DNA from: Halanaerobium congolense
GTDB lineage: Bacteria > Bacillota > Halanaerobiia > Halanaerobiales > Halanaerobiaceae
Assembly: GCF_004366375.1 (NCBI RefSeq)
Contig: NZ_SOEF01000010.1
Location: 1 to 64,000 of the forward strand
Reading direction: 5' to 3'
Length of the DNA stretch: 64,000 nt
The translations under genes were made by a program, and so were the position numbers. Each line of letters opens with the position of its first letter. Position 1 is the stretch's first letter. Of this stretch, positions 24,050 through 42,835 are shown piece after piece. Under the pieces are notes generated by a model. It did not search any database. It saw only the letters and a program-made list of their open reading frames with translations, and had not been told where the DNA came from.

Positions 24050-25645
24050 ATGACAGCAGATAATTCAGATCTTCAAAGTCTAATCACAAATATTGATCGA
24101 AAATATACTCCTCTGAGAGAAGTTATTAAAGAATCGTGGAATAGAAGCAGTAACTATGGTTTAAAAACTAATAACTTTAAAAACAAAGTTTTATTAAATA
24201 GAAATGAAATAGAACTAAGAATAAGCAAAAATAAAGATTTTAACGATAAATTTGATAGAATATTTTCAGAGTTTAGAGAAAACATTGGTGAGATTTCTGC
24301 AGTTTTTTTTATAACAGATAAAGAAGGTTATGTTCTCTCTGCTAAAAATCATCTTAATGAGTTTGTAAACTTAAAAAAAGGTGAAAATTTTAGTGAGTTT
24401 TATTTGGGGACAAATGCAGCTGGTTTAACCCTTTATTCTAATCAACCGGCTACTGTTAAAGCTGAAGAACATTATTTTAAATATCTAACAGCCTATAATT
24501 CAACAGCTTATCCAATTTTAGACCAATACAACAACTTAAAGGGCTGTATAGCTGCTTTTTATACAGCTGAATTGGATAATAATTTGTTAGAAATGATTAT
24601 TAAATTATTTGCCTTTACTTTAACAGATAAAATACCTGCTGATAAAATTTTAAAAAGTAAGAATGACAAATCAGCTCCTAAAACAGGATCCAAAGCCCGA
24701 TATTCTTTTGCTGATATCATAACAAATTCTAAAAATATGAAAAAAGCAATTGAAGTGGCCCAAATTGCAGCTAGAAATGATTCAACAGTAATGCTGGCCG
24801 GAGAAAGCGGTACAGGTAAAGAAATGTTTGCCCAGGCAATTCACAACTATAATCACCGTAAAAACAGTCCTTTTGTGGCAGTGAATGTAGGAGCTGTCCC
24901 CAAAGATTTGGTGGAAAGCGAGTTTTTTGGATATGAAGAAGGTGCCTTTACCGGAGCTCGAAGAGGTGGACGCCCAGGTAAATTTGAATTAGCAAATGGA
25001 GGTACAATATTTTTAGATGAGATAGAAGAGATGACACTTTCTGCTCAGCAGAATTTACTGCGGGTAATTCAGGAACGAGAAGTAACAAGAATTGGTGGTA
25101 CACATGCACTGCCAATAGATGTCAGAATAATAACTGCAACAAAGTCAAAGTTAATTGATAAAGTCAAAAAAGGAGAATTTAGAGAGGATTTATATTATCG
25201 ACTCAATGTTATTAGAATTCCCATCCCAAACTTAAAAGATAGAAGAGATGACATAATGCTTTTAGTAAATAATTTTATAAAAATTCACTGTCAAAAATTT
25301 GGGATTCCAGTTAAAAAGGTTGCAAAAATAAGCAAAAAATATTTTTTAGAATATAACTGGCCTGGAAATGTTAGAGAACTAGAAAATATGATTGAAGGAA
25401 TTATAACTTTTGCTTTAGATGATGAGGTAATTAAACCAAAACATCTGCCGCGAGAATTAATAAACTCACAAAATACTAAAGAAAAAAAACTAGATTTAAT
25501 GAGTTTGGAAGCTGCTGAAAAAACTGCAGTTATTAATGCTTTAGAAAAAAGTAATTATAATATATCAAAGGCTGCAGAGATATTAAATATCAGTCGGGCT
25601 ACTTTATATAATAAATTAAATAAATATAATATAGAAAGGAAGTGA
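24050..25645 (+). CDS. Sigma-54-dependent transcriptional activator (AcoR-like)
   Basis: An enhancer-binding protein of 531 residues. The N-terminal sensory part (about 20-195) begins with the AcoR-like [11 protein letters not shown] and has a GAF-like fold. The AAA+ domain (about 220-455) has Walker A GESGTGKE, the sigma-54 contact loop GAFTGA, Walker [12 protein letters not shown] and the arginine-finger region [19 protein letters not shown] Fis-type helix-turn-helix ends the protein ([23 protein letters not shown]). It is the first gene of the C1 island, 4 bp from the next. The likely target is the GG-N10-GC promoter at 29988. The effector is unknown, perhaps a C1 compound. Confidence 0.93.
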
Positions 25646-25649
25646 AAAA

Positions 25650-26927
25650 ATGGACGCAGTTGCAGTAATCGATATTAAAGATTCTATTGTAGTCAGGGCA
25701 GTGGCAGGGAAAAGAAATGAGTATCAAGCAGTTGAAAGCAGAATTTTAAAAGATGGAGAAATCACCCCTTTAGCTGTTGCAGCTGCATTTTATGAAAAAT
25801 TAGGCATAAGAAAAATTTATATTGCTGATTTAGATGCAATTTTAGGAGATACTAATAATATAAAAATGATTAAAAAAATTAAAAATGAGTATCCTGATCT
25901 GGAAATAATTCTTGATGCAGCATTTGATAGAAATAATTCTCCAATTCCTTATTTAGAAGAGTTTCTGGATTATGCAGTTATAGCAACTGAAACAATTAAA
26001 AATTTGTCTTTTTTAAATGAATTAAAAGATTATAAAGCTAAAATTATTATTAGTATGGACTTAAAAACAGGTAGTTTGATCCATAATATTCAAAAATGGC
26101 AGAATAAAACTTTGAAAAATATAGTAAATGAAATAAAAAAATTAGGTTTTCAAAATTTTATTATACTTGATTTGGCCAATGTTGGTACAGCTTCAGGTAT
26201 CTCAAAATATATTAGAGAGCTCAAAATCGAATTTCCAGAATTAAATCTGATTACCGGTGGGGGAGTTAAAGATTATAGAGATATTAAAAAATTAAAGCGG
26301 TTACAATTTTCTGGAGTTTTAATTGCTTCAGCATTTCACAACGGTTCACTCGGCGAAAAAGAAGTAAGATTAATTGAAGCTGATGATATCTTGTATCAAA
26401 TTGCCTGGTGTATTACAGGAGCCGGTCATCTGCTTCGGGAAAGCATTGATCAGATTGAAGAACTTCTTGCAGAAAATAGTAAATTAAAAATTGATATCTA
26501 TCTAAGTAAGGCCGGTTTGGAAGTTTTAAAAATTTATAAATTCTATCAGCGTTTAGAAAATTTGGGCTGTCAAATTTACAAAGATAACTCTGCCAGTTCT
26601 CCAATTATCGGTAAAATTTATAAAGGTTATTATGATGTATTAGTTTCAGCTCCTACGACTTCTAATACCACTGCCAAATTTGTATTAGGCATTTCCGATA
26701 CTCTGGTGAGTAATTTGCTGGCCCATGCCGGTAAAACAAAACTGCCAGTTGTAGTTTTACCAACCGATATTGATCAAAATCTTGTTTCAGCTGCTCCTGG
26801 TAAAGAAGTTGATGTTTTTCCTAGAGAAATTGATTTAAAAAATACAGAAAAATTATCACAACTAGCTGATACAAGTGTTATTTCTGAGCCAAAAGAGGTG
26901 AAATCATGCCTAAAAAAATTTTTTTAA
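25650..26927 (+). CDS. Fusion of a HisA-like barrel and an AfpA/DmrB-type flavoprotein
   Basis: A 425-residue two-domain protein. Residues 1 to about 235 form a HisA/HisF-like TIM barrel (MDAVAVIDIKDSIVVRAVAGKRNEY, YIADLDAI, LITGGGVKDYRDI); such proteins recur in H4MPT gene clusters with no proven reaction. Residues about 240-425 match archaeoflavoproteins (IAWCITGAGHLLRES, VSAPTTSNTTAKFVLGISDTLVSNLL), the superfamily of DmrB, which reduces dihydromethanopterin to H4MPT using FMN. So the C-terminal half probably performs the last step of cofactor synthesis. The two domains are usually separate proteins, and the fusion is notable. Confidence 0.8.
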   Translation: MDAVAVIDIKDSIVVRAVAGKRNEYQAVESRILKDGEITPLAVAAAFYEKLGIRKIYIADLDAILGDTNNIKMIKKIKNEYPDLEIILDAAFDRNNSPIPYLEEFLDYAVIATETIKNLSFLNELKDYKAKIIISMDLKTGSLIHNIQKWQNKTLKNIVNEIKKLGFQNFIILDLANVGTASGISKYIRELKIEFPELNLITGGGVKDYRDIKKLKRLQFSGVLIASAFHNGSLGEKEVRLIEADDILYQIAWCITGAGHLLRESIDQIEELLAENSKLKIDIYLSKAGLEVLKIYKFYQRLENLGCQIYKDNSASSPIIGKIYKGYYDVLVSAPTTSNTTAKFVLGISDTLVSNLLAHAGKTKLPVVVLPTDIDQNLVSAAPGKEVDVFPREIDLKNTEKLSQLADTSVISEPKEVKSCLKKFF

Positions 26928-28312
26928 CTGGTAAGCTGGCATATTCCTCTTTAAAAAAAACATTGGCAAGGTTAAATTTAGATTTTGATTATCAAATTTT
27001 AAAAATGCCAATAACAGTTGCTGCTTTAATGGACAGCAGTTTTATCATCAGAAATTTAAAAAAAGCTGAAATTCATAGTTCTGCAGAAAATTTAGAAATA
27101 ATTTTGCCGGGACGTTCTCAAGCAGAAATAGAAATAATTAATAAAGAATTAAAAAACGAACTGCTTGAATTTCAAAAAGGGCCTGATGAGATAATAGATT
27201 TACCAGAATTTTTTGGAAAAAAAACAGCAAAAATTGATTTTGAACAAGAAAAAAGAGGCCATAAAATCATTGCAGAAATAAATGAAGCTTCTCTAATGGA
27301 TTTAGATGAAATAATAAAAATAGCTGATTACTATCATCAGAATGGAGCCGATATAATTGATCTAGGGTGTGTGAATGGAAGAGAATTTCCCCATCTAGAA
27401 GAAGTGATTTATTCATTAAAAGAAAAAAATTATCAGCTTAGTATAGATACTTTTGACCAAGATGAAATAATTAGAGCTTCCAAAACAGGAATTGATTATT
27501 TATTAAGTATTAATAGTCATAATCTTGAAGTTTTAAATTATGAGGTAAATTATTTACCTGTAATTATTCCAGATCCGGAATCAGGAAATCTAAAATCATT
27601 ATATAAAAATATAAAAAAAGTTAAGAAAAAGGGGATTAAAAATTATATAGTAGATCCAATTTTAGATCCAATTAATTTTGGTTTTAGTGAATCGCTTTTT
27701 AGGTACTTGAGTTTAGCTAAAGACAAAAAATTAAAACAGGAAATGATGATGGGAGTTGGAAATTTAATTGAATTAAGTGATTGTGATAGTACAGGTCTAA
27801 ATTTTATTGCAGCAGCTTTAGCGGTGGAATTAAATATTGAATATCTCTTAATTACTGAAGCTTCTTTTAAAACCCGCGGAGCAGTAAAAGAATTAGACTT
27901 AGCACTTAAAATTATTTCACACGCCGAGCAAGAAAACAGTTTACCCAATAACTTGTCTAATTTGCTGCTTAATCTTAAAGATAGAAAAGATAGGAATTAT
28001 ACCAGGGAAGAAGTTAAAGAAATTAAAAACTCAATTACAGACAGTAATTATAGAATTTTAAATGATGGAAAAGCAATAAATATTTTTAATGCAGAAGAAG
28101 AATACAGAGGCAGAGATATCAGTGAGCTATTTTTTGAACTAAAAAATACTAATGAGCCTTCACATGCTTTTTATTTAGGTAAAGAATTACAGAAAGCTTA
28201 TACAGCCTTAAATTTATCTAAAAATTATAGACAGGAAGATGAACTTGATTGGGGATATTTAAATTCTAATTTTAAATCAGAAAAATTTAAGGAGAAAAAA
28301 AATGATAATTGA
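26906..28312 (+). CDS. Dihydropteroate synthase-like protein of the H4MPT pathway
   Basis: A 468-residue protein with an N-terminal domain (about 1-140, DUF6513-like) and a DHPS-type barrel (about 145-350: IIAEINEASLMDLDEIIKIADYYHQNGADIIDLGCVNGR, LSIDTFDQDEI). The C-terminal tail (FYLGKELQKAYTALNLSKNYRQEDELDWGYL) is typical of the archaeal/methylotroph dihydropteroate synthase-related family. The expected role is coupling hydroxymethyl-dihydropterin diphosphate to the ribofuranosyl-aminobenzene phosphate made by MptG. It overlaps the previous gene by 22 bp, with GAGGTG as ribosome site. The exact reaction is inferred from the family. Confidence 0.8.
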   Translation: MPKKIFLTGKLAYSSLKKTLARLNLDFDYQILKMPITVAALMDSSFIIRNLKKAEIHSSAENLEIILPGRSQAEIEIINKELKNELLEFQKGPDEIIDLPEFFGKKTAKIDFEQEKRGHKIIAEINEASLMDLDEIIKIADYYHQNGADIIDLGCVNGREFPHLEEVIYSLKEKNYQLSIDTFDQDEIIRASKTGIDYLLSINSHNLEVLNYEVNYLPVIIPDPESGNLKSLYKNIKKVKKKGIKNYIVDPILDPINFGFSESLFRYLSLAKDKKLKQEMMMGVGNLIELSDCDSTGLNFIAAALAVELNIEYLLITEASFKTRGAVKELDLALKIISHAEQENSLPNNLSNLLLNLKDRKDRNYTREEVKEIKNSITDSNYRILNDGKAINIFNAEEEYRGRDISELFFELKNTNEPSHAFYLGKELQKAYTALNLSKNYRQEDELDWGYLNSNFKSEKFKEKKNDN

Positions 28313-28841
28313 AACGGTGGTCAGCACAGTTAATAAGGATAATGAACCCCATTTTGCAGCAGTAGGAGTAGAATTTATACAGCAAAAAGCGGTATTTAAT
28401 CTTTATAAAAAAAGTCATACTTTTTCTAATTTAAAAAATAAAGATTCTGGCATTATAAATGTAGTTGATAAAGCAGAATATTTACTAAAAGCTGCATTAG
28501 GATCAGCAAAAATAGATTTTTCAAAAATAGAAAAAAGAAATTTATATTATTTAACTGACTGCTGTAGCTATTATCAATTTAAACTAATAAATATTGAAGA
28601 ACAAGCAGAAAAATATTTGGTTAAGGTAGAGATCACTAAAGCTGAAGAAAACCGAAAATATATTGGTTTTAACAGAGCAAATAATTTATTAGTAGAAGCG
28701 GCTGTGATAGCTTCTAGAATAGGAATTACAAAAACAAAAAATGATTTGGTGCAGTTTATTAATCAAAATCGAAAAGTGATAAATAAAACAGGAGACAAAA
28801 ATACTCAAGAGCTTTTAAAATTCCTTGAAAGAAATATTTAA
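28302..28841 (+). CDS. DUF447 family protein (FMN-binding split-barrel fold) of H4MPT clusters
   Basis: A 179-residue protein beginning MIIETVVSTVNKDNEPHFAAVGVEF, the characteristic start of DUF447, a flavin-reductase-like split barrel. Homologues are persistent members of H4MPT gene clusters in methanogens and methylotrophs, but I know of no demonstrated activity. It overlaps the DHPS-like gene by 11 bp, which indicates translational coupling and supports a role in cofactor synthesis. Confidence 0.78.
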   Translation: MIIETVVSTVNKDNEPHFAAVGVEFIQQKAVFNLYKKSHTFSNLKNKDSGIINVVDKAEYLLKAALGSAKIDFSKIEKRNLYYLTDCCSYYQFKLINIEEQAEKYLVKVEITKAEENRKYIGFNRANNLLVEAAVIASRIGITKTKNDLVQFINQNRKVINKTGDKNTQELLKFLERNI

Positions 28842-28874
28842 AATAATAATTACAATACAATAGGAGTGGTATTC

Positions 28875-29858
28875 TTGATTCAAATTAAAACTCCAGCTAG
28901 AATTCATTTTGGTCAATTAGATTTAAATGGAGATTTAGGTAGAATTTATGGTGGTTCTGGAGCAGCAATTGTAGAACCATATACTTTAATCAAAGTTGAA
29001 AAAAACAGTAAATTAGAAGTTGAAGGTTTAAAAAAAGAAAAAAAGAAACTTATTATTGAAAAATTTTTATCTGATTTAAAGAAAAGAAAATTATTAACTA
29101 AAAATCAAGGTGTTAGAATAATAATAGAATCATTGCTTCCTGCCCATTATGGACTGGGCTCAGGGACTCAGTTTGGCTTGGCAGTAGCCGAAGGGATAAA
29201 TAAACTATATGACTTAAAGTTAGAGCCTAAAGAACTGGCTCAGATAGTTGACCGTAAACACAGCCGCTCAGCAATAGGATTTGGTGCTTTTTATCAGGGA
29301 GGATTTATTGTTGATGCTGGTAGACCAATTTCAGATAAAAATAATGATCAATATTTACCTCCAATAGTCTATCAGAATAAATTACCATCTGAATGGAGAT
29401 TTTTAATAATAATTCCTCATTTTAAAAAAGAAAAAATAGCAGGAAAAAAGGAAATTAAAGCATTTAATGAAATTGAAAAAATGTCAGTACAAAAATGTGC
29501 GGAAAATGCACATCATCTGCTTTTAGGAATGTTACCAGCTGTCGAAGAAAATAATATAGATAAATTCAGCAGTCACTTAAATATAATAGAAGATAATGTA
29601 TCTGAATATTTTTCCAAAGCTCAAGGAGGGAAGTACAGCTCAAAACATGCTCAAGAAATCATTGATCTTATGGTTAATGAGGGTGTTTTGGCTCGTGGTC
29701 AGAGTTCCTGGGGGCCTGCCTTGTATGGTTTAGTAGAAAATAAAGAAAAAGCTAAAAAAATTAAACTAAAATTACAGGAAAAATTATCAGAAAAGATAAA
29801 CGAAATTCATATCACAAAAGCGGCAAATAATGGAGCTGAAATTACAAAAAGTGTATAA
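28875..29858 (+). CDS. mptG: Beta-ribofuranosylaminobenzene 5'-phosphate synthase
   Basis: Beta-RFAP synthase condenses p-aminobenzoate (or 4-hydroxybenzoate) with PRPP, the committed step to H4MPT. This GHMP-fold protein has the family start IKTPARIHFGQLDLNGDLGRIYGGSGAAI, the loop HYGLGSGTQFGLAVAEGI (about residues 92-109) and HSRSAIGFGAFYQGGFIVDAG. I chose TTG 28875, 8 nt behind AGGAG; the GTG at 28866 overlaps that site. It is the best marker that this island makes a methanopterin rather than only folate. Confidence 0.92.
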   Translation: MIQIKTPARIHFGQLDLNGDLGRIYGGSGAAIVEPYTLIKVEKNSKLEVEGLKKEKKKLIIEKFLSDLKKRKLLTKNQGVRIIIESLLPAHYGLGSGTQFGLAVAEGINKLYDLKLEPKELAQIVDRKHSRSAIGFGAFYQGGFIVDAGRPISDKNNDQYLPPIVYQNKLPSEWRFLIIIPHFKKEKIAGKKEIKAFNEIEKMSVQKCAENAHHLLLGMLPAVEENNIDKFSSHLNIIEDNVSEYFSKAQGGKYSSKHAQEIIDLMVNEGVLARGQSSWGPALYGLVENKEKAKKIKLKLQEKLSEKINEIHITKAANNGAEITKSV

Positions 29859-29987: not shown

Positions 29988-30004
29988 TTGGTATAATTTA
30001 TGCA
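29988..30004 (+). promoter_or_regulatory. Sigma-54 (-24/-12) promoter of the C1 operon
   Basis: TTGGTAT (29988-29994) and ATGCA (30000-30004) give GG (29990-29991), exactly 10 nt, then GC (30002-30003), the invariant spacing of sigma-54 promoters. Transcription should start near 30014. Both a matching activator gene (24050) and rpoN (49385) are in the window. Confidence 0.7.
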
Positions 30005-30150: not shown

Positions 30151-30266
30151 AATAATAAAAAAGGGGGGGAGGAAAATCGTAGAGTAGATTTTTTTGGGCA
30201 TTTTAGAATGAAAGTTTAAACAAAATTTTGAAAAAGATTATTTTAAAACTAAAAGGAGGATGTTTT

Positions 30267-31754
30267 ATGGCAGCTAATAAAAAAATTGCAAAAAAGATGA
30301 TTGATGAGGCAGTAGCGGCTCAAATGGCTGATGTTGGTGTATTTAAAGAAAAAAGAGGGGCAAAGTTCACAATTAGTGATGCTAAGCCTTATGTAGATGC
30401 AGTTAAGAATATGAAAGCTATTGAAGGCCAGTCAAAAGAAGTTATAGACTTACATGTTGAGTCAGTGAAAGCTCATTATGAAATACTTAAAGATTTAACA
30501 GATACAATAGCACCAAAAGATGACCCTTTTGTAGAACATTATCAAACACCTCCAATTCTAGAAATCTTATATGAAGAAGATCCAGATTTCCGCAAAGCAG
30601 CAGAGAAGTTTATGGAGCAGTTAAAAAATGATGAGGCTTTAATTGCTAGAGAATCAATGCGCAGGTATGGTGGAATGTATGGACCAACTTGTGTAGTAGA
30701 CTTTGCTTTCAGCCCTGGCTCAGTTAGTAATGTTGTCAATGAAGTATTAAAAAATACTGATATTGATGGTGACTACAAAAAAACAATACTTGCAGCAAAA
30801 TCATGGGGTATGAATACTTCTTATGGTATTGGTGGCGCCTTTACTGAAGCTGTAGAAGCAGGTAAGACAGCAGCAGAAGCAGCAGAAGCTGAAGTAAAAA
30901 CAATGCAGATGCTTTATGATACTCCTGTAGATGCACAGGTTAAATTAATGGAAGATGCAGATATGGATTCATTTGACTGCAGAGAATACATGAAGCGCTA
31001 CAAAGAATGGATGAAACCATTTGTTTTAGCAGCTAAAGAAGCTGGAGTTCATCCAGCTAATATTGTTGTAGTTCCTGCTTATTGTGTTGGTGATGTTGGT
31101 CACCATATCGCCCAATCAACATTTAACATGCTTAAAGATGATGTTACCATGGAAATAGTAGAAGTTGTATCTAATGTAATGAAGAATACTCTTGAAAGAG
31201 GATTAGATAAAGGTTATGACAGCCTCTATGATATTTTAAGTGTTGCAACAGGTTCAACAGCTGCAGCAGTTAGTTCAATGTTATGGGATGAAGGATTTAC
31301 AGCCCCAATGATTATAGATCTCTTAACAAAGAGATTCCACAATTATGTTAATTTAAATCCAGCTAGAGGTCAGGCAGCAGAGCTCCATAATGTTGACTTT
31401 ATGGATATGATTCACCGTGGTGACAAGATTATTGATGATCAGCCAATAGGTGCCGGCTGTAAAGTTAAGGGTATAGATATTGACTTTAGTCCAATTGAAG
31501 AAAGCTATGTACTTCAAAATACACAGGACTATGCTTATCCAGCTTGTTCAATTTCTGTTAAATTCTCATCCTTAATGCGTCTTGCTGATTTCCCATGTCT
31601 ATTGACAAGTGAGCCAGTTACTGCTACTTTAATGACTAACATTATTGCATTAGATCCTGGTTCAGTAGTTGCACCAGCACGCTACTGTAAAGACTGTGCA
31701 GTTTGTATGTATGTTAAGAAGCATAAGCACTGTAATTGGAAGGATACTGTTTAA
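30267..31754 (+). CDS. DUF2193-like protein, unknown function, first gene of the C1 operon
   Basis: A 495-residue soluble protein that I recognise as resembling DUF2193, a family otherwise known to me mainly from methanogens, without an assigned reaction. It is Cys-rich near the C terminus, with C-x2-C-x2-C-x8-C in RYCKDCAVCMYVKKHKHCNW, a likely metal or Fe-S site. Other conserved-looking Cys/His groups are YGPTCVV, VPAYCVGDVGHHIA and CSISVKFSS. The start ATG 30267 follows a perfect AAGGAGG; the longer frame from 30228 precedes that site. It stands alone behind the sigma-54 promoter and ahead of a strong hairpin, suggesting high expression. No Fae or methyltransferase is seen, so it is the best candidate for C1 entry or exit. 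Confidence 0.75.
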   Translation: MAANKKIAKKMIDEAVAAQMADVGVFKEKRGAKFTISDAKPYVDAVKNMKAIEGQSKEVIDLHVESVKAHYEILKDLTDTIAPKDDPFVEHYQTPPILEILYEEDPDFRKAAEKFMEQLKNDEALIARESMRRYGGMYGPTCVVDFAFSPGSVSNVVNEVLKNTDIDGDYKKTILAAKSWGMNTSYGIGGAFTEAVEAGKTAAEAAEAEVKTMQMLYDTPVDAQVKLMEDADMDSFDCREYMKRYKEWMKPFVLAAKEAGVHPANIVVVPAYCVGDVGHHIAQSTFNMLKDDVTMEIVEVVSNVMKNTLERGLDKGYDSLYDILSVATGSTAAAVSSMLWDEGFTAPMIIDLLTKRFHNYVNLNPARGQAAELHNVDFMDMIHRGDKIIDDQPIGAGCKVKGIDIDFSPIEESYVLQNTQDYAYPACSISVKFSSLMRLADFPCLLTSEPVTATLMTNIIALDPGSVVAPARYCKDCAVCMYVKKHKHCNWKDTV

Positions 31755-31792: not shown

Positions 31793-31819
31793 GAAGACAG
31801 TGGATAATCCACTGTCTTC
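31793..31819 (+). repeat. Perfect 12-bp hairpin between the DUF2193 gene and the dehydrogenase gene
   Basis: GAAGACAGTGGA, loop TAA, TCCACTGTCTTC. No T-tract follows, so it is unlikely to be a full terminator; it may protect the upstream mRNA from decay and set different expression levels on either side. Confidence 0.7.
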
Positions 31820-31842: not shown

Positions 31843-32700
31843 ATGAAAAAATTATTAATTCAGTTAGATACTGATAAAAGAGCAAGTACTTTTGATCAGG
31901 TAGTAGCCTATGATGCGGGTGCAGATAATTTAATAATTCATTCGAAAATTACTAAAGAAGAAGTAGAAGATATTATCTATGGAGCTATATTTACCCGCTC
32001 ACCTAAAAAAATGAAAAACACCGCGGTTTTTATTGGTGGATCAGATGTTGAAAAAGGTGAAAAGATTATGGAAGCGGTAGAGGATGTATTTTTTGCAAAT
32101 TTTCGCGTTTCTGTAATGCTGGACTCAAATGGATCAAATACGACTGCTGCAGCCTCAGTTTTAAAGGTAAAAGAAGAAATAGATTTAGCTGGTTGTGAAG
32201 TATTGATTTTAGCAGGTACTGGACCAGTTGGTGTTAGAGCCGCCGCTCTTTTTGCAATGGAGGGTGCTTCAGTAACTATAACTTCCCGCAGTCAAGAAAA
32301 AGCTGATAAAAAAGCTGAAATGATAAAAGAAGAATATGATCTAGAAAAAATAAAGGGAGTTGAAGCAAAAACTGATGCAGATTTTATAAAAGCTATGAAA
32401 AATAAAGAAGTAATTCTATCAGCAGGACCTCCCGGGATTAATTTTATTAGTCGTGAAATGTGGAAAAATGAGGATTCAATAAAAGTTATGGCTGATATTA
32501 ATGCTGTTAGTCCAGCTGGTATAGAGGGGATCGAGCCACCTGCAGATGGTGATACAATTGATGGTATAAAAGTTTTTGGTGCCTTAGGCATTGGTAGTTT
32601 GAAGATGAAACTTCATAAAAAAGCTGTTGCAGAATTATTCAAAACAAACGATCTAAGTTTAAATGCTGTGGAAGTATATAAATTAAATGAAAAACTATAA
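31843..32700 (+). CDS. NAD(P)-dependent methylene-H4MPT dehydrogenase (MtdA/MtdB family)
   Basis: It interconverts methylene- and methenyl-tetrahydromethanopterin with NAD(P). The 285-residue protein has the family N-terminus (KKLLIQLDTDKRASTFDQVVAYDAGAD) and a Rossmann nucleotide loop VLILAGTGPVGVRAAALFAMEGASVTITSRS (about residues 122-152). Arg/Ser after the second strand would favour NADP, but MtdA and MtdB cannot be separated by eye. GIEGIEPPADG and GALGIGSLKMKLHK near the end are conserved in the family. It avoids any need for coenzyme F420. Confidence 0.9.
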   Translation: MKKLLIQLDTDKRASTFDQVVAYDAGADNLIIHSKITKEEVEDIIYGAIFTRSPKKMKNTAVFIGGSDVEKGEKIMEAVEDVFFANFRVSVMLDSNGSNTTAAASVLKVKEEIDLAGCEVLILAGTGPVGVRAAALFAMEGASVTITSRSQEKADKKAEMIKEEYDLEKIKGVEAKTDADFIKAMKNKEVILSAGPPGINFISREMWKNEDSIKVMADINAVSPAGIEGIEPPADGDTIDGIKVFGALGIGSLKMKLHKKAVAELFKTNDLSLNAVEVYKLNEKL

Positions 32701-33943
32701 AAATATAAATCTAATTTTAACATCATTCTCAACCAGAGCCGCAGCAGACTGTTTTTCGACTTTGAAAAATTTAAAAATTTATTCCTTTGATTATTTTGGG
32801 GATCTTGATTTAAAAGAAATTGTCGATTATTCTTATTCGCTCAAAGAAAATAAGCATAATTTTAAAACCGAGGTGTTATTTGAAGCTGTTAAAAAATTTC
32901 TAAGACAAAATCAGAATCAAGAATATGATTTAATTTATGCTTCAGCTTGGGATAATCATCCTGAACTGCTTTACCAACTAGAAAAAATTAAAAATCTAAG
33001 ACTCAGGGGTAATTCAGCTGCAGTAATTTCGAAATTAAATCAAAAAGAGACTTTAAAAAATTTATTTAAGCTGGCTGAAAAAGCTGGATTTAAAACCCCT
33101 GATTTATTTTTGAATAAAAACGATTTTTACTATTTTTCAGATAAAATTGATAAAGATTTGATAATAAAACCATATCAAAGTGGTGGTGGTTTAGATTTAA
33201 AATTAATTAAAGCTGGAACTGCCAAAGAAAAAGTTTTAAAAGATAATTTTACTGCAAACGGAAGCTTTTTTGCCGAAGAATTTATTAAAGGAAATAATAG
33301 ATCCTGTCAATTTGCTGCAGATGGTAAAAAAGCGAGAATACTTTCTTTTACCCAAGAATTAAAAGCGGATGCTGTAAATCCTAAGTTTAAAAATAGTTTT
33401 AAATATGCAGGAAATATTTTGACCAAAGAAGATGTGAAATCAAGAAACATTATCAGCACTTTTATTAATGAGCTTGTTAAAAAATATTCACTGCAGGGAA
33501 TTAATGGAATTGATTATATTAAAAATGAGCAGGGTATATTTTTTATAGAATTAAATCCACGTTTTACAGCTGCTGTAGAATTAATAAAGGATATTTATCG
33601 AGAAGAACTTCTCAACATTTATTTAAAAAATGAATTAGCAGCTGATTATTTAAAAAAATATTTAAAAAGAGATTTAGGACTTTCTGCTAAGGTAATTTAT
33701 TATACTGACCATAATTTTAAGTTAAAAAAAACTTTGTCTGAAATTTTTAAAATAATAAAACAAGAAATCCCCCCTAGAATACTTGCCGAATCTAAAATTG
33801 AAATTAAAGATTTACCGAAAAAAGGGGAATTTTTTAAAAAAGATGATCCTGTTTTTAGTTTAATTATTAAATCTAAAAACAAAAATGATTATTTATCAAT
33901 AAAAAATTTGGTTTTTTCTGAGTTTAAAAAATATTTTATTTAA
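32687..33943 (+). CDS. ATP-grasp protein of H4MPT clusters (COG2232/OrfY-like)
   Basis: A 418-residue ATP-grasp ligase. The ATP-binding core is visible as DLIIKPYQSGGGLDLKLI (about 155-172), FFAEEFIKGNNRSCQFAADG and the metal-binding GINGIDYIKNEQGIFFIELNPRF (about 265-287). Such a protein accompanies H4MPT genes in methylotrophs and is thought to act in cofactor synthesis, but its substrate is unproven. It overlaps the dehydrogenase gene by 14 bp and lies 40 bp before fmdD. Confidence 0.7.
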   Translation: MKNYKNINLILTSFSTRAAADCFSTLKNLKIYSFDYFGDLDLKEIVDYSYSLKENKHNFKTEVLFEAVKKFLRQNQNQEYDLIYASAWDNHPELLYQLEKIKNLRLRGNSAAVISKLNQKETLKNLFKLAEKAGFKTPDLFLNKNDFYYFSDKIDKDLIIKPYQSGGGLDLKLIKAGTAKEKVLKDNFTANGSFFAEEFIKGNNRSCQFAADGKKARILSFTQELKADAVNPKFKNSFKYAGNILTKEDVKSRNIISTFINELVKKYSLQGINGIDYIKNEQGIFFIELNPRFTAAVELIKDIYREELLNIYLKNELAADYLKKYLKRDLGLSAKVIYYTDHNFKLKKTLSEIFKIIKQEIPPRILAESKIEIKDLPKKGEFFKKDDPVFSLIIKSKNKNDYLSIKNLVFSEFKKYFI

Positions 33944-33983: not shown

Positions 33984-34334
33984 TTGTCTGATAATAATTT
34001 TATTTTAATAACTGGTAGAACAATAAAGCAGGGAATGGCTTCAGTCTCTGGCAAAAAAAGTGATAATTATAAAAAAGAAACTTCTTATGTTGAAGTTAGT
34101 AAAAATGTGCTCCAGCGAATGAACATTGAAGAAGGAGAAACTGTTATTTTAGAAAGTGAGGCCGGTAGTGTCGAAGTAAGTTGTAAAGCAGCTGATTTAG
34201 AAGAGGATATAGTATTTATGCCTTATGGCCGTATCGCTAATAGTTTAATTGGAACTGATACTGGCGGGACCGGGATGCCTAATTCCAAAAGCAATGTGGT
34301 AAAACTTATTCGAAAGGAGGCGCAGACTAATTGA
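33984..34334 (+). CDS. fmdD: Formylmethanofuran dehydrogenase subunit D (molybdopterin dinucleotide-binding)
   Basis: A 116-residue protein with the small double-psi barrel that cradles the molybdopterin guanine dinucleotide in FmdD/FwdD: LITGRTIKQGMASVSGKKSDNY at the N-terminus and VEVSCKAADLEEDIVFMPYGRIANSLIGTDTGGTGMPNSK. The latter, with its run of small residues, contacts the pterin in the family. The start is TTG behind AAAGGAGAGG. It overlaps fmdB by 4 bp. Its presence argues that FmdB carries a Mo or W cofactor. Confidence 0.88.
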   Translation: MSDNNFILITGRTIKQGMASVSGKKSDNYKKETSYVEVSKNVLQRMNIEEGETVILESEAGSVEVSCKAADLEEDIVFMPYGRIANSLIGTDTGGTGMPNSKSNVVKLIRKEAQTN

Positions 34335-35620
34335 CAGAATTAAAAACCTTTAAAAACATAACCTGTACTTTTTGTGGTGCACTCTGTGATAATATTGAAG
34401 TTAAAGTAAAAGATAATAAAATTGAAGAACTCAAAAATGCCTGTGCAATTTCCAGAAAAAAATATGAGCATGCTTTAAAAGACAGAACAAGTCCAATGAT
34501 TAATGGAGAAGAAAGTACCTATCAGGAAGTTATTGAGAAAGCAGCAGAAATTTTAAAAAATAGTAAAAATCCATTAATTTATGGTTTGAGCAGTACTACT
34601 GCTGAAGCTCAAAAAAATGCGGTTAAATTGGCTGAATTATCTGGAGCAAATATTGATAGTACATCTTCAGTCTGCCATGGCCCTGGAACAATGGCCAAAC
34701 AGCTTGTTGGTATGATAACAGCAACTTTAGGTGAAATAAAAAATAGATCTGATCTAATGGTTTTTTGGGGGGCAAATCCAGTTGAAGCTCATCCAAATCA
34801 TTCTAAGAGATACACTATGCTTTCAGAAGGGCTTTTTAAGAAAAATCGTTCAGATCGAGAAGTAATTGTTTTTGATGTTCGTAAGACACCTACAGCTAAA
34901 ATGGCTGATCAATTTATTAGAGTGGAACCCGGAAAAGATTTTGAGTTATTAATGGCATTAAGATTAATAATTCAGGGTAAAAAACCTGAAACTGAAGCTG
35001 GTAAAGTTGCTGGTTTAGAATTGGCAGAAATTGAAGCAGCTGCAGAAAAATTAAAAAATGCTCGTTATGGAAGTATTTTTTACGGTATGGGTTTAACTAT
35101 GACCGGTGCTAAATACATGAACACCTGGGCAGCGATGAGTTTAATTAGAGACTTAAATAATGATCACCAGCGGCGATTTGTAATGATGCCGATGCGCGGA
35201 CACGGGAATGTAGCTGGTAGTGAAATAACTATGGCCTGGCAGACAGGATATCCTTTCGCTGTTAATTTCAGTAAGGCCTATCCCCGCTATAATCCGGGAG
35301 AATATACTGCAGTAGATTTATTGGCTAATAAAGAGGTAGATGCTGCTTTTATAATTGCTTCAGACCCGGCAGGTAATTTACCAAAAAAAGCTGCTGCCCA
35401 TTTAAAAGATATACCAACAATTATTCTTGACCCACACTGGAATTTTACCAGTGATTTTGCAGATGTCGTAATACCCTCAGCTTTGAAAGGGATTACTGCT
35501 TCGGGAACAGTTTATCGAATGGATCATGTTCCTCTGCATTTGAGATCTTTTTTAGAAGATGAGTGGCCGGATGATGCAGCTGCAGTAGCACAAATAGGGG
35601 AGCTGATAGAAAATGCTTAG
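34331..35620 (+). CDS. fmdB: Formylmethanofuran dehydrogenase subunit B (Mo/W catalytic subunit)
   Basis: The formate dehydrogenase-like subunit that reduces CO2 to formate, or the reverse. A [4Fe-4S] site is intact: C12-x2-C15-x3-C19 and C38. Cys115 in VCHGPG aligns with the metal-ligating Cys/Sec of FwdB. Pterin-contact segments FWGANPVEAHPNHSKRY, FDVRKTPTAKMAD and MRGHGNVAG are retained. In methylotroph FhcB these cofactor sites are lost, so this enzyme looks redox-competent. It starts with TTG, and the 429-residue length is normal for archaeal FwdB/FmdB. Confidence 0.9.
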   Translation: MTELKTFKNITCTFCGALCDNIEVKVKDNKIEELKNACAISRKKYEHALKDRTSPMINGEESTYQEVIEKAAEILKNSKNPLIYGLSSTTAEAQKNAVKLAELSGANIDSTSSVCHGPGTMAKQLVGMITATLGEIKNRSDLMVFWGANPVEAHPNHSKRYTMLSEGLFKKNRSDREVIVFDVRKTPTAKMADQFIRVEPGKDFELLMALRLIIQGKKPETEAGKVAGLELAEIEAAAEKLKNARYGSIFYGMGLTMTGAKYMNTWAAMSLIRDLNNDHQRRFVMMPMRGHGNVAGSEITMAWQTGYPFAVNFSKAYPRYNPGEYTAVDLLANKEVDAAFIIASDPAGNLPKKAAAHLKDIPTIILDPHWNFTSDFADVVIPSALKGITASGTVYRMDHVPLHLRSFLEDEWPDDAAAVAQIGELIENA

Positions 35621-37289
35621 ACTTAAAAATGCAGTAATCTATGATCCCACAAATAATAAAGATGGGGTTAAAGAAGATATTTGGATTGAAAATGGAAAAA
35701 TTGCTGCTGAGCCAAAGCCTGAGGTTGTAAAAGAACTAAAAGCTGCTGATGATTTAGAAGAAATCGATTTAAATGGAAAAATTGTAATGGCAGGTGGGGT
35801 GGACATTCATTCTCATATTGCCGGACCTAAGGTAAACTCTGGTCGTGTTTTAAGACCTGAAGATCACAGACGTGATAATGTTGCTCGTAAGGGTAAACTT
35901 CGTTCGGGTGTTGGTTCTACAGTTCCATCTAGTTATGTAACAGGTTATCGCTACAGCTTAATGGGTTACACAACAGTAATGGAAGCTGCGGGTCCACCAA
36001 TGAAGGCCAAACATATTCATGAAGAATTTGGTGATCTACCCTATATAGATAAAGGATTTTTGGTATTAAGCGGCAACAACTATTTTGTTTTAAAATTTAT
36101 TAGTGAAAATAACCAGCAGGCTTTAAAAGATTATCTGGCCTGGTTGATAAATGTAACAGGAGCTTTTGGCTTAAAAGTTGTTAATCCAGGTGGAGTTGAA
36201 GCCTGGAAAGAAGGCAAAAGGATGAGGGGGATTGATGAAAAAGGAACCCATTTTGATTTGAGCCCGAAAGAGATATTGCTCGCTTTAGCTAAAGCTGCAG
36301 ATGATCTTGAACTACCACATCCGATTCATCTTCATACAAATGATCTTGGTTCAGCTGGTAATTACAAGACAGCCATCAATACGATGAAGCTTTTAGAAGA
36401 TTATAGACTGCACATAACCCATGTTCAATTCAGCAGTTATGGCAAAAATGAAGATTCAAAAATAAAATTTGCTATGGCTACAGATGAAATTGCAGCTGAA
36501 ATAAATAGACAGTCAAAATTAACAGTAGATATCGGCCAGCTTGTATTTGGCGAAGCTACAACTATGACTGCAGACGGTATTTTAGAATATAATCTGCATA
36601 AATTATCAGGAAACAAATGGGTTAATACAGATGTCGAAATGGAAACTGGATCAGGAATTGTGCCGATGAACTATAAAAAAAAGAATTTAGTTAATGATAT
36701 TCAGTGGGCAACTGGAATGGAGTTATTCTTAAAAATTGAAGATCCCTGGAAGGTATTTTTGACAACAGATCATCCAAATGCAGGTCCTTTTACTGCTTAT
36801 CCCTGGATTATAAAATTGCTGATGGATAAAAATTATAGGAAAGATTATATCTCAGACTTAAATGATAAATTTGATGAGTATACGGATTTATCATCACTGG
36901 ATAGAGAATATAGTTTGAGTGAAATAGCAGTAATTAGTCGGTCGGGGCCAGCTAAAGCACTTGGACTAAAAAACAAAGGCCATCTGGGAGTTGGAGCAGA
37001 TGCAGATATAACCATCTATAATAATATTGAAGATAATGATATTGCAGAAGTTTTTGCTCATCCTGCCTATGTTTTCAAATCAGGAAAAATGATTGTTAAA
37101 GCAGGAGAACTATTAGATAACTTAGAAATTGGTAAAACCTTAGTTACAAAACCCGAATATGATCAAAATATTATTGAGTTAATTAGAGAGGACTTCCAGA
37201 AGTACTACAGTATTTCAATAGATAATTATCCAGTTACCGATCATTATTACGATAAAATTGAGGTGATTCCATGCGTTACCAAGGAATAG
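35613..37289 (+). CDS. fmdA: Formylmethanofuran dehydrogenase subunit A (amidohydrolase)
   Basis: This binuclear-metal amidohydrolase joins formate to methanofuran or hydrolyses formylmethanofuran. The 558-residue protein keeps the expected ligands: His pair in GGVDIHSHIAGPK (about residues 62-74), the carboxylated Lys in LKVVNPGG (near 190), His in HPIHLHTNDLGSAGNY and HITHVQFSSYG, and the catalytic Asp in TTDHPNAGPFTAYPW. It overlaps fmdB by 8 bp and ftr by 19 bp. In FwdABC a tunnel links FmdB and FmdA sites; both partners are present here. Confidence 0.93.
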   Translation: MLRLKNAVIYDPTNNKDGVKEDIWIENGKIAAEPKPEVVKELKAADDLEEIDLNGKIVMAGGVDIHSHIAGPKVNSGRVLRPEDHRRDNVARKGKLRSGVGSTVPSSYVTGYRYSLMGYTTVMEAAGPPMKAKHIHEEFGDLPYIDKGFLVLSGNNYFVLKFISENNQQALKDYLAWLINVTGAFGLKVVNPGGVEAWKEGKRMRGIDEKGTHFDLSPKEILLALAKAADDLELPHPIHLHTNDLGSAGNYKTAINTMKLLEDYRLHITHVQFSSYGKNEDSKIKFAMATDEIAAEINRQSKLTVDIGQLVFGEATTMTADGILEYNLHKLSGNKWVNTDVEMETGSGIVPMNYKKKNLVNDIQWATGMELFLKIEDPWKVFLTTDHPNAGPFTAYPWIIKLLMDKNYRKDYISDLNDKFDEYTDLSSLDREYSLSEIAVISRSGPAKALGLKNKGHLGVGADADITIYNNIEDNDIAEVFAHPAYVFKSGKMIVKAGELLDNLEIGKTLVTKPEYDQNIIELIREDFQKYYSISIDNYPVTDHYYDKIEVIPCVTKE

Positions 37290-38170
37290 AAATAGAAGAT
37301 ACTTTTGCTGAAGCTTTTACCATGTATGGAACCAGAGTTATAGTAACAGCAGATAATGAAAAATGGGTTGATACTGCAGCCAGAGAGGCAACAGGATTTG
37401 CAACTTCAATCATTGAGTGTGGGATTGAAGCTGGAATCGAAAAGAAATTAAGTCCAGCTGAAACTTTAGACGGTAGGCCTGGAGTCAGCTTACTATTTTT
37501 TACAATGAAAGAAAAATCACTTTTAAAAGAGATGCGGAAAAGAATTGGTCAAACAATTATGACTGCAGCAACTACAGCCTGTTTTAATGGGCTTGATTCA
37601 GAAAAAATGATAAAAGTTGGTGGAAATATTCGTTATTTTGGAGATGGCTTTCAGATTTCAAAGCTTTACGATGAGCGTAGATTCTGGAGAATTCCAATAA
37701 TGGGGGGCGAATTCTTAATCGAAGAAAGCTTTGGGGTTCAAAAAGGTATAGGTGGAGGCAATATAATTATAACAGCAGAAGATTCTAAAACTGCTTTAAA
37801 TGCTGCGGAGAATGCAGTCGAAGCAATGCGGAAAATAGAAGGGGTTGTTATGCCTTTCCCAGGGGGGATTGTCAGCAGTGGCAGTAAAGTTCAATCAAAG
37901 TATTCATTTTTAAATGCTGCCACTAATACTAAATACTGTCCAACAATTAAAGCACAAACAGAGTCAAATTTAGTGGAGAATGTTGGTTCAGTTTTAGAAA
38001 TAGTAATAGATGGTTTAAGTGTGGAAGCAACTGCAGAGGCTATGAGAGTTGGAATCAAAGCAGCTGCTGTAGATGGAGTTGTTAAAATAACGGCAGGTAA
38101 TTATGGTGGAGATCTTGGAACAGAAAACTTTTATCTCAAGGAAATTTTACGAGGTGATCTGGATGACTAA
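37271..38170 (+). CDS. ftr: Formylmethanofuran:H4MPT formyltransferase
   Basis: Ftr (FhcD in methylotrophs) transfers the formyl group between methanofuran and N5 of H4MPT. The 299-residue protein is collinear with the family: EDTFAEAFTMYGTRVIVTADNEKWVDTAAREATGFATSII, ECGIEAG, SPAETLDGRPGVSLLFF and FPGGIVSSGSKVQSKY. The overlaps with fmdA and fmdC indicate coordinated translation; in bacteria Ftr is a subunit of the Fhc complex. Confidence 0.94.
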   Translation: MRYQGIEIEDTFAEAFTMYGTRVIVTADNEKWVDTAAREATGFATSIIECGIEAGIEKKLSPAETLDGRPGVSLLFFTMKEKSLLKEMRKRIGQTIMTAATTACFNGLDSEKMIKVGGNIRYFGDGFQISKLYDERRFWRIPIMGGEFLIEESFGVQKGIGGGNIIITAEDSKTALNAAENAVEAMRKIEGVVMPFPGGIVSSGSKVQSKYSFLNAATNTKYCPTIKAQTESNLVENVGSVLEIVIDGLSVEATAEAMRVGIKAAAVDGVVKITAGNYGGDLGTENFYLKEILRGDLDD

Positions 38171-39017
38171 ACTAAAACTTAAATTAAAAAAAGAAAATCC
38201 AGCCTTAATCAAAAAAGGAAAAGAACTGATTGGTAAAATTCCTGTGGAGGTAGAAAATATACGAGCAGATTTGATTAAAAAAATGACATTGGCTGAGATA
38301 AAAGAGCTGGAAATTAGGGCCGGAAAAGAAATTTATCAACTGCAGGACTTTTTTGAAATTAAAGGAGAGCCAGCAGAAGTGATTGAAATTGATGGTGACT
38401 TATCTAATTTTAAATATTTAGGTGCTGCTATGAATTCAGGCACAATTATAGTAAATGGAGATATTGGAATGCATGTTGGTTCAGAGATGAGTGGGGGCAA
38501 AATAGAAATTAAAGGTGATGCAGGAGATTGGCTGGGAGCAGAAATGACCGGGGGTATAATAACTGTAAATGGTGATGCTGGTAATTATGTCGGTGCTGCT
38601 TTTAGAGGTGATAAACTCGGGATGAATAGGGGTTTAATCTATATTGGAGGCAATGCAGGCAACTTTGTAGCTAATAAGATGCGCAGGGGCGAGATTGTTA
38701 TTAAAGGTGATTGTGGAGACATGCTGGGTGCTCAAATGATAGCTGGCTCTGTCTATGTTTTTGGTAAATGTGGAAAAAGAGCAGGAGCAGGTATGAAAAG
38801 AGGAACAATTATTACCTTTAGTGACTTAGAAATTCTGCCTACTTTTAGCTATAATATAAGCTATTTCCCTAATTTCTTAAATATTGCATTTAAGCATCTT
38901 CAGCATGATTATCAAATTGAAATTTCTGATCAGTTTTTTAATTCAGAATATATGAGATATACCGGTGACAATACTGAATTAGGGAAAGGGGAAATTTTAA
39001 TATGGAAAAAAGATTAG
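38163..39017 (+). CDS. fmdC: Formylmethanofuran dehydrogenase subunit C
   Basis: FmdC/FhcC is the structural beta-helix subunit that holds the A and B/D subunits together. The product (about 284 residues) contains repeated G-x-x-G-x-x-M-x-x-G turns: GDIGMHVGSEMSGGKIEIKG, GDAGDWLGAEMTGGIITVNG and GDCGDMLGAQMIAG. I chose ATG 38163, behind GAGGTGAT and overlapping ftr by 8 bp, over a longer in-frame start at 38103. Confidence 0.92.
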   Translation: MTKLKLKLKKENPALIKKGKELIGKIPVEVENIRADLIKKMTLAEIKELEIRAGKEIYQLQDFFEIKGEPAEVIEIDGDLSNFKYLGAAMNSGTIIVNGDIGMHVGSEMSGGKIEIKGDAGDWLGAEMTGGIITVNGDAGNYVGAAFRGDKLGMNRGLIYIGGNAGNFVANKMRRGEIVIKGDCGDMLGAQMIAGSVYVFGKCGKRAGAGMKRGTIITFSDLEILPTFSYNISYFPNFLNIAFKHLQHDYQIEISDQFFNSEYMRYTGDNTELGKGEILIWKKD

Positions 39018-39964
39018 ACCTCAACAAAAATGCAGTGATGCTGGTTAAAGAAATGATCAATGAAAAAATCTTATTAAATATAGATGTGGTTCATTATAAT
39101 GATGGAATAGTTGTGATTGATGGTGGGATTGATGTTGGGGGTGGCTATCGAGCTGGGGCATTCTTTTCCGAAATCTGTCTGGGGGGATTAGGAGAAGTAG
39201 ATTTTATTGATTATGAAATTAATGATTATCTGATTCCTGCAGTTAAGGTGGAAATTGATCATCCTTTAGAAGCCTGTATGCTTTCTCAATATGCGGGTTG
39301 GAAAGTTGAAAAGAATGATTTTTTTGCCATGGCTTCTGGCCCGGGTAGAATTTTAGCTGCGAAGGAAAAATTATTTGATGAGTATAATGGATATCATGAA
39401 AGCAGAAACTCGCCGGCAGTAATTGTTTTAGAAAGTTCCCAACTTCCAGATGAGAAAACTGCTAAGTATATTGCAGATGAAATGTGTACCCCATGCAGCA
39501 ACAGCTATATTTTAACAGCGCCAACAGAATCATTGGTTGGTTCGATTCAAATAAGTGCCCGAATTATTGAAACCGGAATGCATAAAATGCATGAATTAGA
39601 TTTTGATTTAGAAAAAATAGAATCAGCCTGGGGAATTTGTCCTATTTCACCAACGGCTGATAATACTTTAAAAGCTATTGGCAGAACAAATGATGCAGTC
39701 TTATACGGTGGAACTGCATATTATCAGGTTTACTGTGAAGATAGTGAAATAGAAGAAATTTTAGTAGATATTCCTGCATCTGCCTCAGAAGATTATGGAG
39801 AAAGTTTTTTAAATCTTTATAAGAGATATAATAATTTCTATGATATTGACCCCATGCTTTTTAGCCCTGCGCGTGTTATAATAAATAATAGAAAAAGTGG
39901 AAAAACTTATAAGGCAGGTAAAATTAATTATAAGATACTTGAAAAATCATTTTTTGAGCAATAA
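39002..39964 (+). CDS. mch: Methenyl-tetrahydromethanopterin cyclohydrolase
   Basis: Mch interconverts methenyl-H4MPT and N5-formyl-H4MPT. The 320-residue product shows the family blocks GGIDVGGGYRAGAFFSEICLGGLGEVDF, MASGPGRILAAKEKLFDEYNGYHES, CTPCSNSYILTAPTESLVGSIQISAR and GICPISPTADNTLKAIGRTNDAVLYGG. It overlaps fmdC by 16 bp. Together with the dehydrogenase, Ftr and Fmd it completes a path between methylene-H4MPT and CO2 or formate. Confidence 0.95.
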   Translation: MEKRLDLNKNAVMLVKEMINEKILLNIDVVHYNDGIVVIDGGIDVGGGYRAGAFFSEICLGGLGEVDFIDYEINDYLIPAVKVEIDHPLEACMLSQYAGWKVEKNDFFAMASGPGRILAAKEKLFDEYNGYHESRNSPAVIVLESSQLPDEKTAKYIADEMCTPCSNSYILTAPTESLVGSIQISARIIETGMHKMHELDFDLEKIESAWGICPISPTADNTLKAIGRTNDAVLYGGTAYYQVYCEDSEIEEILVDIPASASEDYGESFLNLYKRYNNFYDIDPMLFSPARVIINNRKSGKTYKAGKINYKILEKSFFEQ

Positions 39965-40014: not shown

Positions 40015-40878
40015 TTGCAGGCAGTAATTCTTGCATCAGATGACGGATGGCATATTGAAGAATTAAAAAGATCATTAAATAGAAAAAATATTAAGGCAGA
40101 AAGAGTCCCAATCACAGAACTTGGAGCAGGGATTGCATCTAACTTTCAGCTGAAATCTAGAGACAAGATATTAGATGATTTTGACTATATTTTTGTCAGA
40201 GTAATTCCCGGGGGCAGTCTTGAACAGATAATTTTAAGGATGGATATTTTAAATAGAATGGCTGCTCTTGGTAAAAAAATAATTAATAAACCTTCTGTTA
40301 TTGAAAAAACAGTTGATAAATACTATACTCAATTTATTTTGGCTGATCACGGCCTGCCAACTCCAGAAACATTTGTGACTGAAGATTTTAGGCAGGCCTT
40401 AGAATACTGTGAAAAATGGGGAGATGTGATTTTAAAGCCTATTTTTGGTTCTCTCGGCAAGGGAATAGTGCGTTTAAAAGATGAGGATACAGCCTATAGA
40501 GTTTTAAGAGCCTGGGATGAGAATAATTTTGTTTTTTATCTGCAGAAATATATTGAGCACGGACAAAGTGATATTAGAGTTTTTGTCTGTAAAGGTGAGA
40601 TCATTGCAGCTTCTGAAAGGTGTGGAGCCAGCTGGAAAACTAATGTGGCTCGAGGAGCTTTTAGCAAAAAAATTGAGCTGCCGCAAAATATTAAAGATAT
40701 GGCTTTAAAAACAGCAGAAATTCTCAATTTAGATTACACAGGAATTGATATAGTTTTGGAGAATGGTAGTTATAAGAACGCATATATTATTGAAGTAAAT
40801 AGTATTCCCGGCTGGTATGGTTTACAGCAGGTAACAGAATTTAATATAGCTGATAGAATTGTTGATTTAATGATTTAG
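40015..40878 (+). CDS. RimK/MptN-like alpha-L-glutamate ligase
   Basis: An ATP-grasp ligase of 287 residues. The core is DVILKPIFGSLGKGIVRL (about 139-156), FYLQKYIEHGQSDIRVFVCKGEIIAASER, and the metal site YTGIDIVLENGSYKNAYIIEVNSIPGW. The family includes MptN, which adds glutamate to H4MPT, and RimK; relatives are standard in bacterial H4MPT clusters. A role in glutamylating H4MPT or methanofuran is inferred. TTG start, well placed behind AGGAGG. Confidence 0.82.
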   Translation: MQAVILASDDGWHIEELKRSLNRKNIKAERVPITELGAGIASNFQLKSRDKILDDFDYIFVRVIPGGSLEQIILRMDILNRMAALGKKIINKPSVIEKTVDKYYTQFILADHGLPTPETFVTEDFRQALEYCEKWGDVILKPIFGSLGKGIVRLKDEDTAYRVLRAWDENNFVFYLQKYIEHGQSDIRVFVCKGEIIAASERCGASWKTNVARGAFSKKIELPQNIKDMALKTAEILNLDYTGIDIVLENGSYKNAYIIEVNSIPGWYGLQQVTEFNIADRIVDLMI

Positions 40879-40901
40879 ACTTGACTTTTTGGGGGGAGAA
40901 T

Positions 40902-42834: not shown

Positions 42835-42835
42835 A

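Follow-up and report, generated by a model that had tools for sequence, protein, structure and literature searches.

Which enzyme feeds one-carbon (C1) units into an oxidation pathway that is complete apart from its entry step? The question is raised by an operon of Halanaerobium congolense that lies in the stretch of 64,000 nucleotides analysed here (the window). A first-pass annotation had proposed that the operon's DUF2193 protein is a C1 enzyme that loads or unloads H4MPT. This reading is partly supported by our analysis, in which DUF2193 would act as the entry enzyme.

The operon and the DUF2193 gene

The operon brings together genes encoding Mtd, Mch, Ftr and formylmethanofuran dehydrogenase (Table 1). 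It is a complete oxidation branch from methylene-H4MPT to CO2, with genes for cofactor synthesis, among them those for the GTP cyclohydrolase and the RFAP-synthase-like, MptN-like, AfpA-like and MfnB-like proteins. Family membership and context make the GHMP protein a probable RFAP synthase. Within the window, the operon encodes MtdB and neither Mer nor MtrH. A profile search of the whole genome detected no Fae, in agreement with the first-pass annotation, which had noted its lack and had held that a fae gene elsewhere in this genome, together with no effect of DUF2193 loss, would speak against its reading.

Table 1. Coordinates of the operon's genes, control signals and candidate sites in the window
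Feature	Position	Strand	Basis
Sigma-54 activator	24050..25645	+	PF00158, 7e-68
HisA-like plus AfpA/dihydromethanopterin-reductase-like flavoprotein	25650..26927	+	PF00977, PF02441; TIGR02699/TIGR02700 below cut-off
Dihydropteroate-synthase-like protein (DUF6513)	26906..28312	+	PF20123; TIGR00284 below cut-off
DUF447 protein	28302..28841	+	PF04289
GHMP protein, probable beta-RFAP synthase	28866..29858	+	PF00288/PF08544
Sigma-54 (-24/-12) promoter TGGTATAATTTATGCA	29989-30004	+	8/11 consensus positions
DUF2193 ribosome binding site AGGAGG	30254..30259	+	sequence
DUF2193 protein (PF09959), 495 aa, proposed C1-entry metalloenzyme	ATG 30267 to stop 31754	+	profile match
Candidate metal site H70, E90, D145, H279, H280, H374	30474..31388	+	conservation; metal binding inferred
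C-terminal cysteine site C444, C474, C477, C489	31596..31733	+	conservation, 81 homologues and 11 paralogues
Hairpin, 12-bp stem, 3-nt loop, DUF2193/mtdB gap	31793..31819	+	no U-run
Methylene-H4MPT dehydrogenase (MtdB type)	31843..32700	+	PF09176 2e-33
ATP-grasp protein	32687..33943	+	PF02655
FwdD-like subunit	33984..34334	+	PF01568
Formylmethanofuran dehydrogenase subunit B	34331..35620	+	TIGR03129 509 bits, above curated cut-off
Formylmethanofuran dehydrogenase subunit A-like	35613..37289	+	PF07969
Ftr	37271..38170	+	PF01913, PF02741
Formylmethanofuran dehydrogenase subunit C-like	38103..39017	+	PF01493
Mch	39002..39964	+	PF02289 395 bits
RimK/MptN-like ligase	40015..40878	+	PF08443
CitG-like protein	40881..41846	+	PF01874
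FolE2/MptA-like GTP cyclohydrolase	41833..42834	+	PF02649
MfnB-like 4-HFC-P synthase (methanofuran synthesis)	42821..43540	+	PF04476 240 bits

The identity of the DUF2193 protein was borne out by a full-length match to PF09959 (828 bits, profile positions 2-498 of 498, cut-off 25), and a genome profile search showed the gene to be single-copy in H. congolense. PF09959 was the sole Pfam match at E values up to 1, with none to Fae (PF08714), MtaB or MttB. No NCBIfam model matched the protein, no sequence relative was found in the PDB, and no homologue was found in viral contigs or plasmids. Relatives at 88-97% identity belong to the same genus or family, and those named are Halanaerobium. The literature searched assigns no function to the family, as the first-pass annotation had stated, and its sole mention is the Methanococcus voltae case (PMC9431491).

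DUF2193 is the first gene behind a sigma-54 promoter, as had been noticed from the sequence. The promoter score is equalled or exceeded in 0.85% of mononucleotide shuffles of the surrounding region, and the TGG-N9-TGCA site is kept in all six aligned Halanaerobium upstream regions. Twelve other Bacillota loci have a sigma-54 site with 8-10 of 11 matches upstream of DUF2193, and in most of these an activator gene is also nearby. The conserved -24/-12 site and the PF00158 activator gene together mark the operon as sigma-54-controlled. Two further signals that had been pointed out are indeed present. AGGAGG stands 7 bases before the DUF2193 ATG and, judged by eye, is the best ribosome binding site of the operon. 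The hairpin behind the gene lies in a stretch with a minimum free energy of -24.1 kcal/mol (z -6.1); as it has no U-run, a role in processing or stability is likelier than one in termination. An Rfam scan of the operon recovered no RNA family.

Distribution and gene neighbours of DUF2193

A genome scan kept the best 80 of 225 DUF2193 relatives and is thus biased to close ones. The family had been thought to occur mainly in methanogens, but we found it in several other archaeal lineages (Archaeoglobi, Methanoperedenaceae, Bathyarchaeota, Baldrarchaeota and Thermoprotei) and in at least six bacterial phyla (Bacillota, Synergistota, Chloroflexota, Actinomycetota, Thermodesulfobacteriota and Caldisericota). 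One locus labelled Actinomycetota (L102) is on a probably misbinned contig; its DUF2193 branches inside the archaea and is almost identical to a Bathyarchaeota sequence.

A wide occurrence of DUF2193 in genomes lacking the H4MPT pathway had been named as evidence against a C1 role, and the survey gave the opposite picture. Mch, Ftr or other pathway genes on the contig were identified in 48 of 50 DUF2193 genomes, a co-occurrence that is not independent of phylogeny. Mch itself occurs in 42. Three of the eight Mch-less genomes have Ftr, three encode other H4MPT proteins on the contig that holds DUF2193 (L056, L067 and L102), and the last two are drafts with no evidence of H4MPT genes. In nearly every bacterial locus with enough flanking sequence, DUF2193 is in or beside an H4MPT cluster, often immediately before mtdB.

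An even sample of 398 Bacillota genomes contained DUF2193 in 11, canonical Mch (over 390 bits) in nine, and both in eight. Mch is missing from three of the DUF2193 genomes, which have other H4MPT genes and a completeness of 79-87%. The ninth genome with canonical Mch (G160) has no DUF2193, and was dropped as a counter-example, as it also lacks Ftr; its high-scoring Mch gene (L162, 7217-8200) has no pathway genes around it. Mch matches below 370 bits had other gene surroundings in those looked at. Three Mch-bearing Halanaerobiales without DUF2193 (G031, G035 and G037) were likewise rejected as counter-examples, their Mch being divergent and without other H4MPT genes nearby.

Divergent Mch-like genes of DUF2193-less Halanaerobiales occur one or two to a locus (L024 15096-16094; L026 9984-10949 and 17344-18309; L028 9166-10131 and 16490-17488). 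They adjoin an SDR gene and, at two of the loci, 2-oxoacid dehydrogenase and lipoate genes. Their products are possibly cyclohydrolases that act on another substrate.

Of 30 bacterial DUF2193 genomes, only four have Fae, all of them Chloroflexota, so in bacteria DUF2193 mostly takes the expected place of Fae. In archaea both occur together, and DUF2193 is not simply a Fae substitute there, because 16 of 20 archaeal DUF2193 genomes carry Fae. The Chloroflexota Fae matches (G438, G443, G445 and G454; L071, L076, L078 and L089) come as pairs within open frames of some 480-600 aa, which exceeds the usual length of Fae.

When the neighbours at the 80 loci were clustered, a MIP channel was the one outstanding family. 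At 50 loci it lies within two genes of DUF2193, in almost every case downstream by one or two genes. In a sample of 247 genomes from one archaeal phylum, 68 have the main DUF2193 copy, and in 67 of these a MIP gene follows directly on the same strand at a distance of 39-302 bp. Among the remaining 179 genomes, 24 have any MIP (Fisher p ~1e-38, uncorrected for relatedness). An AqpM-type MIP gene directly downstream is also present in many bacteria, and the link recurs across separate clades. For two of these MIPs, the nearest solved structures are the AqpM channels 3NE2 and 2EVU/2F2B, and all 46 readable neighbour MIPs have a selectivity filter of F-I-[S/A/Q/T]-R or close to it, as in AqpM. By sequence, the MIP beside DUF2193 is an AqpM orthologue. 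As far as the literature searched shows, this link is new. The H. congolense genome has no MIP gene anywhere and hence no such pair, so the channel is not obligatory. In several archaea, AqpM comes after a DUF2180 zinc-ribbon-like ORF that overlaps the DUF2193 end (L090, 3178-3456; similar in L066, L099, L124 and L126).

Conserved residues and predicted fold

Ten residues (H70, E90, D145, H279, H280, H374, C444, C474, C477 and C489) are invariant or nearly so in both the main family and a divergent archaeal paralogue, in which H63, H91 and C142 differ. The motif C-x2-C-x2-C-x8-C that had been noticed near the C terminus is present (C474, C477, C480 and C489), and three of its cysteines are conserved, in 78, 81 and 81 of 81 homologues for C474, C477 and C489; the fourth, C480, is kept in only 18. 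C444, outside the motif, is invariant.

An AlphaFold2 model of DUF2193 (pLDDT 89.1, pTM 0.91) has helices throughout and no strand of three or more residues. Searches with the whole model reached a best E of 0.2 in Foldseek and a best Z of 4.9 in VIA-align against the PDB, and the C-terminal part reached a best E of 3.6. Neither the whole chain nor the C-terminal part thus has a convincing match among solved folds, which is not in itself proof of a new fold. Two loops, 141-150 and 181-190, combine some of the highest conservation with the lowest confidence (block pLDDT of 68 and 56); over all blocks of the model, conservation and pLDDT correlate at -0.30. In the model, these loops look as expected of binding loops that lack their ligand. 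A comparison with Fae and corrinoid methyltransferases had been suggested, and neither resemblance holds up, as there is no profile match to either, the model is all-helical and no convincing fold match was found. An MtaB-like zinc methyltransferase, considered on account of the Cys/His/Glu pattern, was also rejected, its fold being ruled out by the all-helical model.

Proposed function and relation to known systems

A substrate-specific C1 entry enzyme is the most economical reading of DUF2193, because the operon by subtraction lacks only the entry step. The same reading is favoured by the gene's place at the head of the induced unit, by its co-occurrence with the pathway, and by the channel for small neutral solutes that accompanies it in relatives. 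Beyond the observed family, sigma-54 control, links to H4MPT genes and AqpM, the paralogue's neighbours described below and the conserved residues, we infer that the protein is an enzyme, that it holds metals, and what its substrate and direction are. We give roughly even chances to DUF2193 being an all-helical, probably metal-containing, substrate-specific entry enzyme of the H4MPT/methanofuran C1 pathway.

Under this proposal, the substrate of the soluble DUF2193 protein would be a small, uncharged C1 compound. Methanol and hydrated formaldehyde are the likeliest candidates, preferred by size and oxidation state alone. In most relatives, the compound would enter via the AqpM channel encoded next to DUF2193. 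The conserved His/acid set could bind a metal that activates it, and the cysteine site could bind a Zn or Fe-S centre. DUF2193 would itself load the C1 unit on H4MPT, at the methylene level as suggested by the presence of MtdB and the absence of Mer and MtrH in the window. Methylene-H4MPT would then pass via MtdB, Mch, Ftr and formylmethanofuran dehydrogenase to CO2. Against an entry role stand the four Chloroflexota genomes that hold both Fae and DUF2193; also, for many of the DUF2193-bearing methanogens no use of methanol or formaldehyde is known. A channel is not strictly necessary for either compound, since formaldehyde reacts spontaneously with H4MPT and methanol passes through membranes without help.

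The divergent paralogue bears on the level at which C1 units enter. Thirteen archaeal genomes of the sample have a second DUF2193 copy or a lone divergent one (575-685 bits). An MtrH-like gene is near the divergent copy in all 11 loci examined (L167-L177; for example L173 9004-11293, L174 754-7024 and L175 4201-9493), usually adjacent and in some with overlapping reading frames. Two of these loci also encode a Mer-like protein and an aldehyde ferredoxin oxidoreductase (AOR), and AOR follows main-type DUF2193 in Anaerolineae (L071 and L078). The pairing with MtrH suggests that other members of the family may work at the methyl level. DUF2193 could be a methyltransferase component by which the methyl group of a small substrate reaches H4MPT, either directly or via an MtrH-like partner, so that C1 would enter at the methyl and not the methylene level. 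The Mer-like protein also fits this; however, the window's operon has MtdB without Mer or MtrH, none of the paralogue's neighbours was recognised as a corrinoid protein, and DUF2193 has neither a TIM barrel nor an MtaB/MTTB profile match. We regard a methyltransferase as unlikely.

The recurrent neighbours of DUF2193 concern H4MPT-bound C1 groups, aldehydes or the passage of small neutral molecules. The neighbourhood survey called for by the first-pass annotation therefore speaks for a substrate-facing C1 role (AqpM, MtdB, MtrH, Mer-like and AOR). AqpM is a passive channel and does not fix the direction. DUF2193 might free or remove formaldehyde-level C1 units from H4MPT, as an exit or detoxification enzyme with AqpM as outlet, and the adjoining AOR, able to oxidise aldehydes, would suit such a role. 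Sigma-54 induction together with a whole oxidation pathway and cofactor synthesis looks catabolic, and we consider exit improbable.

A role in iron-sulphur or metal trafficking, or in electron transfer, instead of C1 chemistry is rated just as improbable as exit. Mvol_0354 of M. voltae, a DUF2193 protein, was discussed only as possibly Fe-S or iron-related and is more abundant on FeS2 (PMC9431491), and the conserved cysteines would agree with this; the links to H4MPT and AqpM and the large conserved His/acid core would be left unexplained.

Bacterial DUF2193 genes do lie among cofactor-synthesis genes, as a protein that makes or modifies H4MPT or methanofuran would. But Methanocaldococcus jannaschii, a control genome with Mch, Ftr and Fae, has no DUF2193, and the gene therefore belongs neither to the core pathway nor to cofactor synthesis. 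It is also missing at the family cut-off from 177 of the 247 archaea of the methanogen-rich phylum, and a biosynthetic role does not explain the pairing with AqpM; we consider such a role very improbable. One proposed solute of AqpM is CO2, with H2S reported as excluded (PMC3287591), and a His-rich site could bind a CO2-hydrating zinc, but it is most improbable that DUF2193 handles CO2 for formylmethanofuran dehydrogenase, as its preferred neighbours are MtdB, MtrH, Mer-like proteins and AOR and not fwd genes alone.

A bolder form of the entry reading is offered tentatively, namely that DUF2193 represents a new class of all-helical metalloenzyme through which methanol or formaldehyde would enter H4MPT metabolism anaerobically, without cobalt or Fae, in archaea and bacteria alike, and that AqpM is the channel dedicated to it. 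AqpM is listed without an identified physiological role (PMC6912568). If the channel is dedicated in this way, AqpM, crystallised but functionally orphan, would gain a first physiological role and a physiological partner. If DUF2193 is the entry enzyme, it would be the missing C1 front end in at least six bacterial phyla as well as in many methanogens, Archaeoglobi and methane-oxidising archaea, and a C1 compound not yet tried may be oxidised by fermenters such as Halanaerobium, Acetomicrobium and Moorella relatives. DUF2193 and AqpM are predicted to share a substrate, and that substrate to induce the operon, which is testable in genetically tractable methanogens.

Among known systems, the Fae of methylotrophs has the same role as that proposed here, bringing a formaldehyde-level C1 unit onto H4MPT ahead of MtdB. 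DUF2193 has no sequence match to Fae, is about three times longer and is all-helical in the model, and Fae is mostly missing from bacterial DUF2193 hosts. H4MPT/methanofuran clusters of methylotrophic bacteria and of Synergistetes/Firmicutes, as described in the consulted portions of two reports (PMC5020050, PMC6025917), which do not mention DUF2193, share Mtd, Mch, Ftr, formylmethanofuran dehydrogenase and cofactor genes with the Halanaerobium-type operon. Compared with those clusters, the latter has DUF2193 (in relatives often with AqpM) in place of Fae, and sigma-54 control. MtaB, a methanol:corrinoid methyltransferase, activates a small C1 substrate at a metal, as DUF2193 would, but it has a TIM barrel and a corrinoid partner, and DUF2193 has neither. 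The M. voltae protein belongs to the same Pfam family and has the C-terminal cysteine pattern (PMC9431491), and the channel encoded beside DUF2193 resembles AqpM (PDB 2F2B, 2EVU and 3NE2), whose selectivity filter is of the same type.
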